DNA of 40,078 nt from an uncultured bacterium. GTDB taxonomy: Bacteria > Cyanobacteriota > Vampirovibrionia > Gastranaerophilales > Gastranaerophilaceae. Of the stretch, positions 11,862 to 14,858 are shown piece after piece (the first letter of the stretch is position 1; each line of letters starts with the position of its first letter). Made by a program: the position numbers and the translations under genes. The DNA is taken from positions 1-40,078 of the forward strand of contig CACXCI010000053.1 of the NCBI GenBank assembly GCA_902766105.1, given 5' to 3'. The notes under the pieces are model-generated. The model ran no database searches. It was not told where the DNA came from and saw only the letters and a program-made list of their open reading frames with translations.

Positions 11862-14183
11862 TTATAATATGTCAAGCGGATCAACGTCTATTGTCATTCT
11901 TATATCTTTTGGTGCTGAAACTTTATTTAAAAAACTTGATACAAACTGATGCCCTTTTTCTTCCAATCTATTTTTAATAAGTATTTGAAAACGATAATAG
12001 CTGTTTATTCGCTCAATTACACAAGGAGTTGGTCCAAGAACCTCTAATCTTTCTCCAAATCCGAATTTTTCTATCATTGTACAAAGTCTTAAAGCTATTT
12101 CTTGAGCTGCTTTTTCTGCCCTAAACTTGTTTTGAGAGCTTAGAATAAGTCTTATAATTTGACTAAACGGGGGGTAATCAAAATCCTCGCGAGATTTGAT
12201 TTCCTGTTCAAAGAATTTTGAATAATTTTGTGCTTTAGCGCTTTCCAAAGCGTAATATTCAGGGTTATACGTCTGAAATAAAACTTTTCCGGAAAATTCG
12301 CCACGTCCTGCTCGTCCGGCAACTTGTGTCAAAAGCTGAAATCCACGCTCTGAGGCTCTAAAATCAGGTAAATTAAAGCTTGCATCTGCCGAAATTACCC
12401 CGACAAGTGTTACATTAGGATTATCTAACCCTTTTGCAATCATTTGAGTTCCGACTAAAATATCAATTTCACCTTTTTGGAATTTTTCTAAAAGTCTTAT
12501 GTGTTCGCCTTTTCTGATTAAAACATCACTGTCAATCCGTTCAACAACATTATTTGGAAACAAATCCTTTATATATTGTTCAACTTTTTGCGTGCCTGTT
12601 CCTGAGGTTTTTATTCCGTCAAATCCGCAATTCGGGCATACATCAGGGAAATATTCAACATGGTTACAGTAATGGCACTTTAACATGTTATCTTTTGAAT
12701 GATAAATCATTGGAATTGCGCAATTCGGACATTCTATAACATGCCCGCAGCCTTGACATTGGGTGTATGTTGAAAACCCTCTGCGGTTTATTAGTAAAAT
12801 CACCTGCTGTTTATTATCCAAAGTTTCCTGAATAGCAAGCTGTAACGGTTTAGAAATCAGACTTTTATATGCGGCTCTGCCATATTCTTGCATATTTATA
12901 ACTGTTACCGGTGCAACTTTTGCATTGTTATAGCGAGTTAACATTTCATAAAGATGATTTGAGTTTACGGCTTTATAATAGCTTGAAATATCAGGAGTTG
13001 CAGAACCCAAAATTAGCGGGCAATTATTAAATTCAGCCAATTTCCTTGCAACAAGTCTGGCATCATATCGAGGAGCAGGCGAAGTTTGTTTATATGCACC
13101 TTCGTGTTCTTCATCAATTATGATAAGTCCTATATTTTGTAAAGGTGCAAAAACAGCTGATCTTGCGCCAGCAAGTATTTTTATTTCATTTTTATAAAGC
13201 TTTTGCCAAACATCATAGCGTTCCCCTTCCGATATTGAGCTGTGCCAAATGGCAACATCTTTTGTCCCGAATTTGCGAGCCAAACGCTTGGTAAGTTGTG
13301 ATGCCAATGCAATTTCGGGCGCTAAAAACAGCACATTTTTTCCGGATTTAATCGTATCGTCAATCAGTTTGAAATAAACTTCTGTTTTGCCGCTTGCTGT
13401 TATTCCATGAAGCAATATTTGAGGGGATTTTTCTTCTTTTATTTGTTTTGTTATCCCATCATATACTTTTTGCTGAGTATCTGAAAGTTTGAATAATTCT
13501 TCTGTTTTTGTAATGTTTAAAATGTCCAAAGGATTGCGGTAAATTTCTTCTTCTGATATTCTGACACAACCTAAAGCTTCTAATTTTTTCATTGTGGCAC
13601 GTGTTGTTTTGGCAAGTTTTTCAAACGAAACAAGGTTCATTTTGCCTTTCTGTTTTAATAGTTCAAGAATTTGCAATTGTCTTTTTGTTGCGCCAAAATC
13701 TCTTACATACTCAATTGACAATTCTGTTTTTAATGATTTTTCAAGCAATTTTAAAGGAATTGCCGCATTTAAAACAGTAACCAAATCTGTACAATAATAA
13801 TTTGCAACCCATTCCAAAAGTTTTAGGTATTCAGAGGTAAATAACGGTGTTTCCTCAATAATTTTTGTAATAGGTTTTGCTTTAATATCTTCAGGCAGAT
13901 AATCACTAAATCCGACACAAAAAGCATTTATCATACCCTGCCTGCCGAAAGGTACTAATAAAGCCTGACCGATTTTGATTTTTGACTGCATATAATCAGG
14001 AATTAAATAGCTGAAGGTTTTTACACCCAAAGCTTTTATGTTGACAAGGCAAACAGCGTATTTTCGGTGGGGCAGGTACCCCATCTTATCTTTGTCGGGA
14101 TAGCAATCCTGACCTACATTATTGTCGTGTTTTTTTAATTTTAATTTTTGTTCAAATAGTTTGTTCTGAATTACATCTGCCAT
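11862..14183 (-). CDS. priA: Primosomal protein N', replication restart helicase PriA
   Basis: PriA is the 3'-5' DNA helicase that recognises stalled forks and reloads the replisome. The 773-residue protein has the 3'-end-binding domain (about 42-140), Walker A GITASGKTEVY (260-270), DEEH (357-360), and eight zinc-binding cysteines (476, 479, 485, 488, 503, 506, 516, 519) in the CxxC pattern of the family, with helicase motifs after them. The usual start corresponds to KYAVCLVNIK at 41-50. The first 40 residues are an extra extension, partly encoded by two palindromic repeats. The ATG at 14183 has no clear Shine-Dalgarno; ATG at codon 34 (14084) is the only nearby alternative and lies within a repeat. 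Confidence 0.94.
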   Translation of the reverse strand: MADVIQNKLFEQKLKLKKHDNNVGQDCYPDKDKMGYLPHRKYAVCLVNIKALGVKTFSYLIPDYMQSKIKIGQALLVPFGRQGMINAFCVGFSDYLPEDIKAKPITKIIEETPLFTSEYLKLLEWVANYYCTDLVTVLNAAIPLKLLEKSLKTELSIEYVRDFGATKRQLQILELLKQKGKMNLVSFEKLAKTTRATMKKLEALGCVRISEEEIYRNPLDILNITKTEELFKLSDTQQKVYDGITKQIKEEKSPQILLHGITASGKTEVYFKLIDDTIKSGKNVLFLAPEIALASQLTKRLARKFGTKDVAIWHSSISEGERYDVWQKLYKNEIKILAGARSAVFAPLQNIGLIIIDEEHEGAYKQTSPAPRYDARLVARKLAEFNNCPLILGSATPDISSYYKAVNSNHLYEMLTRYNNAKVAPVTVINMQEYGRAAYKSLISKPLQLAIQETLDNKQQVILLINRRGFSTYTQCQGCGHVIECPNCAIPMIYHSKDNMLKCHYCNHVEYFPDVCPNCGFDGIKTSGTGTQKVEQYIKDLFPNNVVERIDSDVLIRKGEHIRLLEKFQKGEIDILVGTQMIAKGLDNPNVTLVGVISADASFNLPDFRASERGFQLLTQVAGRAGRGEFSGKVLFQTYNPEYYALESAKAQNYSKFFEQEIKSREDFDYPPFSQIIRLILSSQNKFRAEKAAQEIALRLCTMIEKFGFGERLEVLGPTPCVIERINSYYRFQILIKNRLEEKGHQFVSSFLNKVSAPKDIRMTIDVDPLDIL
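14066..14113. repeat. Two palindromic repeats inside the 5' end of priA
   Basis: GGTGGGGCAGGTACCCCATC (14066-14085) and GTCGGGATAGCAATCCTGAC (14094-14113) each form a 7-8-bp hairpin with one G-U. They belong to the GGTGGG...CCCACC/CTAC style of repeat found at 14196, 14231 and 14892. Here they are read in frame as part of the PriA N-terminal extension (GQDCYPD and GYLPHR). Confidence 0.7.
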
Positions 14184-14195
14184 AATTACTTTTTT

Positions 14196-14215
14196 GGTGG
14201 GATAGGTATCCCACC
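14196..14215. repeat. Palindromic repeat directly upstream of priA
   Basis: GGTGGGAT-AGGT-ATCCCACC is a perfect 8-bp palindrome followed by TTAC. On the priA mRNA it would fold 12 nt before the start codon. Confidence 0.75.
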
Positions 14216-14230
14216 TTACAATATTTCTTT

Positions 14231-14254
14231 GGTGGGGTTGGTACCCAACCCTAC
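14231..14254. repeat. Palindromic repeat between priA and the secreted hypothetical
   Basis: GGTGGGGTTGGTACCCAACC followed by CTAC contains the perfect arms GGGTTGG-TAC-CCAACCC. It is the same family as the copies at 14196 and 14892, with the arm sequence diverged but pairing kept. Confidence 0.75.
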
Positions 14255-14273: not shown

Positions 14274-14858
14274 TTATTTACTTTCTTTATACATTGTCTT
14301 TCCTTCTTTTGGGAAGCGACTATATTCTCTTGCGTAATTAGGATTATACTTATTTAATCCTAAATTAACATGAAAGAAATACGTGTTTTTATCAGTGCCG
14401 TTTTTGAAATGAATACAAGCATCACTTGGTCTTTTGTTTTCTTCACAATAACTTTTTAAATGTTTTAAACGTTCATTAGGGTACTTTATTTCTTTTGCAA
14501 TAAGTTGTCCCAATTGTTTAGCGTATTCTTGCGGTAGTGCATACTCTGTGCTCTGCCATTTATTATTATCAAATTTCCATTCTTTAACAATACAATTACC
14601 TGTATTTAAACCAACAATTTGGGTTTTGAATTTGTGAATAGCTGCAAAAATTCCGTCACCCGTTACGGAAATTGGAGTTGTATAAGGGGTACATCTTGAT
14701 AAATTATAAAAGAAATTATAATCCATGTATCCAGCAAAATGTTCTTGGCTGCCAAAGTACAATCCGGAACCTTGTATTTCTTTTTCCGCAAAACATTCGC
14801 ATATGCCAAATACAACTAATATCGTTGCCATAATAAGTATAAATTTTATTTTATTCAT
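14274..14858 (-). CDS. Hypothetical secreted protein
   Basis: I do not recognise this 194-residue protein. It begins with a clear signal peptide (MNKIKFILIM, then a hydrophobic core, probable cleavage after CFA at 24), so it is exported. The mature part is mixed alpha/beta in composition, rich in Asn, Lys and Tyr, with several Cys (for example in RCTPYTTPI and DACIHF) that could form disulfides. No catalytic motif is visible. An AAAGGA Shine-Dalgarno precedes the ATG. The gene is bracketed by palindromic repeats at 14231 and 14892, which fits an accessory or shuffled gene. Confidence 0.7.
   Translation of the reverse strand: MNKIKFILIMATILVVFGICECFAEKEIQGSGLYFGSQEHFAGYMDYNFFYNLSRCTPYTTPISVTGDGIFAAIHKFKTQIVGLNTGNCIVKEWKFDNNKWQSTEYALPQEYAKQLGQLIAKEIKYPNERLKHLKSYCEENKRPSDACIHFKNGTDKNTYFFHVNLGLNKYNPNYAREYSRFPKEGKTMYKESK

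Follow-up and report, generated by a model that had tools for sequence, protein, structure and literature searches.

The priA gene of an uncultured bacterium of the lineage Candidatus Gastranaerophilales carries palindromic repeats both within and just before the 5' end of its reading frame. The gene lies in a 40,078-nucleotide stretch of DNA (the window), and its arrangement raises the question of how repeats came to stand at the start of a PriA protein. A first-pass annotation proposed that mobile repeats had been absorbed into the gene as an N-terminal extension, or else that the true start codon lies inside a repeat, at codon 34.

The extension beyond ordinary PriA is real. The Pfam PriA 3'-binding domain aligns to residues 54–143, from profile position 9, and the best match among solved PriA structures begins at query residue 47. 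In an AlphaFold model of moderate quality (mean pLDDT 69.1, pTM 0.54, built from 26 sequences), residues 1–37 have pLDDT below 50, indicating predicted disorder, and the first strand of the core begins at residue 42. Table 1 lists the parts of the protein and the repeats. Directly upstream of priA, positions 14274–14858 encode a protein of 194 aa that matches no Pfam family and whose N-terminus looks, by eye, like a signal sequence; in several relatives the end of a different gene lies directly upstream of priA.

Table 1 Features of the priA locus (positions in the window).
Feature	Position	Strand	Basis or remark
priA, 773 aa	11862..14183, stop codon included	-	ORF; PriA domains in Pfam
Conserved N-terminal peptide MADVIQNKLFEQKLKLKK, codons 1-18	14130..14183	-	Genus conservation, pN/pS, pLDDT
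QNKLF, codons 6-10, sliding-clamp-motif-like	14154..14168	-	Consensus from available sections of PMC11139829
Variable linker, codons 19-40, 22 codons (9-22 in genus)	14064..14129	-	Genus comparison
PriA core, residues 41-773	11865..14063	-	Pfam and model; first strand at residue 42
In-frame REP 1, GTAGGTCAGGATTGCTATCCCGAC	14094..14117	-	Codons 23-30 (VGQDCYPD); decayed counterpart in G008
In-frame REP 2, ATAAGATGGGGTACCTGCCCCACC	14066..14089	-	Within codons 32-40 (DKMGYLPHR); remnant in G008
Near upstream REP	14196..14219	-	Ends 12 nt before ATG; same place in G008
Outer upstream REP	14231..14254	-	Not seen in G008

Four similar hairpins span positions 14066 to 14254, each a 24-nt GTAG-type REP or a decayed copy of one. 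On the priA strand, each consists of GTAG or a decayed form of it, followed by a 20-nt stem-loop. Aligned in register, the four copies occupy 14057–14089, 14085–14117, 14187–14219 and 14222–14254 of the window. When up to 3 mismatches are allowed, GGTGGGNNNGGTANCCCAHC is matched 4 times in the window (three places, one matched on both strands), compared with an average of 0.10 matches and never more than 1 over 100 shuffles; in-frame REP 1 belongs to another subfamily and stands outside this count. The outer upstream REP and in-frame REP 1 start with an intact GTAG, so that a short palindrome with a GTAG end is present; the tag is decayed to GTAA in the near upstream REP and to ATAA in in-frame REP 2. 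The first-pass annotation was thus correct in seeing four hairpins, in assigning two of them to the translated frame and in placing one 12 nt ahead of the start codon. We regard it as almost certain that these repeats are GTAG-type REPs.

Counting copies across the genome, a check that the first-pass annotation had suggested, gives 102 matches to GTAGGGTN{8,30}ACC (nested matches counted) versus 16 for the reversed control. Of 65 hairpin REPs in 40 stretches that were selected around REP matches rather than at random, 64 are not within any ORF of 90 or more residues; the scan misses long-loop REPs such as one in the RAYT gene on contig C69. In-gene copies are therefore uncommon in this genome. 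As a type, GTAG REPs are present here in many, mostly intergenic copies, and the priA subfamily itself is low-copy. Distinct priA-type sites, hand-counted from per-strand matches, number 5 in this genome, 9 in G008, 13 in G021 and 1 in G057, and none was found in the remaining 6 of the 10 genomes scanned.

The genome contains three Y1 transposase (RAYT) genes, with REPs beside them. RAYTs with cognate REPs do occur. Among 16 of 17 RAYT loci, some of them clipped, none has a RAYT with REPs of precisely the priA subfamily on its flanks. A count of in-gene REP copies in relatives at RAYT loci was set aside, the clipped loci not being REP-centred. The C69 RAYT gene (locus L007, about 1720–1750) has an in-frame REP of its own, translated as GGHADALPTL. 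In addition, GTAGGGTGCATCGTTTGATGCACC and GTAGGGTGTGGTTTTAACCGCACC face each other at a distance of about 11 nt to form a composite element that is found at many sites in this genome, for example at L255 690–749.

To decide how much of the extension is protein in origin, we compared it across the genus. The PriA N-terminus was recovered from 44 of 46 genomes (G043 and G056 have no PriA match) and, with two sequences from G003, the set comprises 45 PriAs; loci L012, L023, L031 and L037 stand outside the alignment (A2). The arrangement [IV]QxxLFx...K[LI]x[LV]K[KR], followed by a linker of 9–22 codons, occurs in 44 of the 45. The pN/pS is 0.172 for the QxxLF block and 0.126 for the KLxLKK block, compared with 0.183 for 100 core codons; rows were chosen by motif, which biases the block values slightly downwards, and G007, having no motif, was omitted. 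In three loci (L016, L025 and L026) an in-frame stop lies one to three codons ahead of the conserved start. The only genus PriA without QxxLF is that of G007 (L024), the tail of which is shortened to MENKLILKKRE and retains KLILKK.

To judge from these comparisons, codons 1–18 are translated and under selection as protein. This excludes a start at codon 34, and that proposal of the first-pass annotation does not hold. The corresponding alternative, an untranslated leader that contains the REPs, with a start of translation at codon 34 or at the core, has some points in its favour: the ATG at codon 34 lies inside in-frame REP 2, the PriAs of several other genera begin at the core, and the available sections of PMC3733652 warn that a REP placed at the N-terminus of an ORF may in fact be extragenic. 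Set against the conservation and low pN/pS of codons 1–18 and the stops that closely precede the conserved start in relatives, it is very improbable. The first-pass annotation had named conservation of the extension as protein in distant relatives lacking the repeats as the observation that would refute it; for residues 1–18 such conservation is found, in 44 of the 45 genus PriAs. An extension made of repeats is accordingly rejected for these residues and retained for the linker.

In the linker, the repeats have a history that can be read in a relative. In G008 the near upstream REP occupies the corresponding position, and both linker REPs are traceable, REP 1 as a decayed copy and REP 2 as a remnant; the outer upstream REP is absent. 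Between the window and locus L009, the near upstream REP differs by an A-T to G-C change on both arms, and its loop is inverted (ACCT to AGGT). The PriAs of the window, G008 and G057 form one clade with SH-aLRT 98, the order within it unresolved, in a tree of 41 rows under a simple model; no REP was seen by eye in the G057 linker. Comparison of the priA 5' end among relatives, as the first-pass annotation had recommended, thus bears out homologous REPs in the linker and speaks against repeat-made residues 1–18. The absorption of repeats into priA stands as in-frame insertion into the linker, and falls as an account of the extension as a whole. Since the genome is a draft assembly in 110 contigs, repeats might have been stitched into priA by misassembly. 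That explanation is hardly credible, because homologous REPs, differing by point changes, stand at the same positions in G008, a separate genome. We conclude that the REPs were very probably inserted into the linker behind the conserved peptide.

The REPs are not the only palindromes in this linker. Four other genomes (G002, G004, G016 and G046; loci L023, L016, L032 and L137) have priA linkers with an unrelated perfect palindrome of 11–12 bp, AAATGACGGAG...CTCCGTCATTT (elsewhere written ATGACGGAG...CTCCGTCAT), which is translated in frame. Among the 354 loci examined it is confined to these four linkers. Perfect linker stems of at least 7 occur in 4 of 45 linkers, compared with a shuffle mean of 0.38 and a maximum of 3. 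This strict scan (perfect stem of 7) flags neither the present genome (G000) nor G008, because their REPs are mismatched. Weaker linker stems, as in G014 and G006, are at chance level (6 seen with a score of at least 6; shuffle mean 1.99, maximum 6). Since the palindrome in the four linkers is unrelated to the REPs, palindromes have entered the linker at least twice. In G016 (L032), PriA contains a 42-residue in-frame insert around residue 252, which is based on a GC-rich palindrome and separates the N-terminal part from the helicase domain. Taken together, the REPs, the linker palindrome and the G016 insert indicate that palindromes have entered priA in frame in at least three ways.

The REPs could also have been retained as RNA or DNA elements that control priA through translation, mRNA stability or supercoiling. 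As RNA, the upstream REP pair is more stably folded than its shuffles (z -2.97, with none of 200 equalling it), and the near upstream REP, 12 nt ahead of the ATG, folds well. Its copy in G008 is changed on both arms with the stem preserved, and a perfect stem of at least 7 lies within 100 nt upstream in 10 of the 45 genus PriAs, a scan without shuffle control. The remaining observations point the other way. The other 35 of the 45 genus PriAs have no such upstream stem, and G008 has decayed linker REPs and lacks the outer upstream one. An Rfam search found no family at the repeats, and the single terminator-like call there (14066–14085) is on the + strand, opposite to priA, so that neither a structured RNA family nor a terminator is adopted as a reading. 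We therefore consider a control function unlikely. Folding is less clear for the in-gene pair (z -1.95; 8 of 200 shuffles as good), and the outer upstream REP folded alone is unremarkable (z -0.94). Outside the repeats, the Rfam search returned just a sub-threshold folP match at 14672–14776 (E 0.21, 20 bits versus 99).

In the explanation that we prefer, PriA of the genus has a conserved peptide, predicted to be disordered ([IV]QxxLF ... KLxLKK), ahead of a variable linker and the ordinary core, and GTAG-type REPs entered both the linker and the 5' flank before this lineage and G008 diverged. Their mobilisation was presumably due to RAYT (Y1) transposases. The priA-type REPs are open (no stop) in 4–5 of the 6 frames, and their length of 24 nt preserves the reading frame. 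Very weak constraint on the linker, together with an element that leaves the frame intact and in most frames brings no stop, may explain why the REPs were retained; inserts in the linker would then be nearly neutral, and the linker would be a repeated target of palindromes. The conserved peptide in front of it could most readily serve to dock PriA on the sliding clamp DnaN, which would take replication restart to clamp-bearing forks. As a whole, REPs in a tolerant linker behind a conserved peptide with putative clamp docking is the likely explanation of the locus.

The suggestion of clamp docking comes from the QxxLF block. According to the available sections of a review, the consensus of the sliding-clamp motif is Q-aliphatic-x-[L/M][F/L], and position 2 is called tolerant (PMC11139829). 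Gln at position 1, Leu at position 4 and Phe at position 5 are present in the QxxLF of 44 of the 45 genus PriAs, and the predicted disorder of residues 1–37 is consistent with an accessible position. Position 2 is N, T or K in the genus rather than aliphatic; I at this position is found in the QINLF of G097, from another genus. We therefore term the PriA sequence motif-like rather than a member of the motif. At the DnaE site of the genus, which from its position we take to be the internal clamp motif, the sequences are QGSLF (25), QASLF (3) and QGNLF (2) at all 30 loci from genomes with a dnaE match, so that position 2 is G in 27 of 30 and A in 3 of 30. A full dnaE was not found in G000, G013 and G045 (G000 has just a 44%-identical piece on C108); strong matches are present in the other 43 of the 46 genus genomes, and the three absences are probably assembly gaps.

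QxxLF also occurs outside the genus. It is present in 5 of 50 PriA N-termini from other genera of the family (g17, g18, g22 and g25) and missing in the other 45, compared with a shuffle mean of 0.12 and 0 of 5000 shuffles with as many as 5; for the other two frames the count is 1 of 100. In a tree of 82 rows, all rows with QxxLF fall in one group of 60 (SH-aLRT 98), with none among the 22 rows outside, and the trait changes at least seven times; the tree includes 29 genus rows and 130 columns and was built by a quick method, with 44 of 79 inner branches open. Among the open-access literature matches listed, by title and abstract opening, there is no report of PriA binding to the clamp. On this sequence evidence, binding of the conserved peptide to DnaN is about an even prospect. 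The fuller proposal, that the PriA tail of this lineage tethers the helicase directly to the clamp through a tether repeatedly rebuilt by palindromic elements, comes just short of even.

Alternatively, the peptide may be genuinely conserved for a partner that is not the clamp, be it a different protein of the replisome, DNA contacted through KLxLKK, or PriA itself. Position 2 is off the clamp consensus, KLxLKK is constrained at least as much as QxxLF (pN/pS 0.126 versus 0.172), and KLxLKK is kept in G007, which has lost QxxLF. Against this, QxxLF is found without KLxLKK in the shorter tails of other genera (for example QINLF, QNTLF and QNKLF). Such a partner is quite conceivable, if somewhat on the doubtful side. 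Two SSB-like proteins were found in G000 (L167 and L173); the best SSB match has KRDVDDAA at its end and no acidic-Phe tail, and the weaker match ends in DEEIPF, and the same two-protein split is present in G008, G007 and G013. Because one of the two retains DEEIPF, recruitment through SSB is possible and the clamp is not needed, and loss of the SSB tail is unsupported as a reason for a clamp tail.

REPs within genes are already known, and priA adds an example with a readable history, in that the insertion is shared with a close relative and decaying there and an unrelated palindrome has entered the same linker in other genomes. What is new is a PriA tail, specific to one lineage of gut Melainabacteria, that is under selection, predicted to be disordered and clamp-motif-like at its core. 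If DnaN binding is true, the tail would provide a clamp route for PriA recruitment alongside the known SSB route, and would illustrate gain and loss of a replisome contact between close relatives.

The REPs resemble the known GTAG-type REP and RAYT/TnpA-REP systems, as described in the available sections of PMC3733652 and PMC8266576, in being 24-nt GTAG-tagged hairpins with many, mostly intergenic copies and in the presence of RAYT genes with adjoining REPs. They differ in that a RAYT matching the priA subfamily was not found at 16 of 17 loci. The available text of PMC3733652, which contains no occurrence of priA, already reports intragenic REPs, some of them in genes for replication and repair. 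The same text cites the Rickettsia palindromic elements (RPE), which are likewise palindromes in frame in protein genes; these have other sequences and occur in other bacteria, whereas here only single or paired 24-nt elements are found, in one tolerant linker. Insertion of the REPs is thus an already known kind of event, and the putative clamp-tethering tail is plausible and new. For the tail, the nearest comparison is Hda, which has a clamp motif in a disordered N-terminus (PMC11139829, available sections, where PriA does not occur). The PriA tail, likewise N-terminal and predicted to be disordered, shares Q at position 1, L at position 4 and F at position 5, but differs in having N, T or K at position 2 in the genus. 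SSB also brings PriA to forks, as described in the part of PMC10804225 available, through SSB rather than the clamp.
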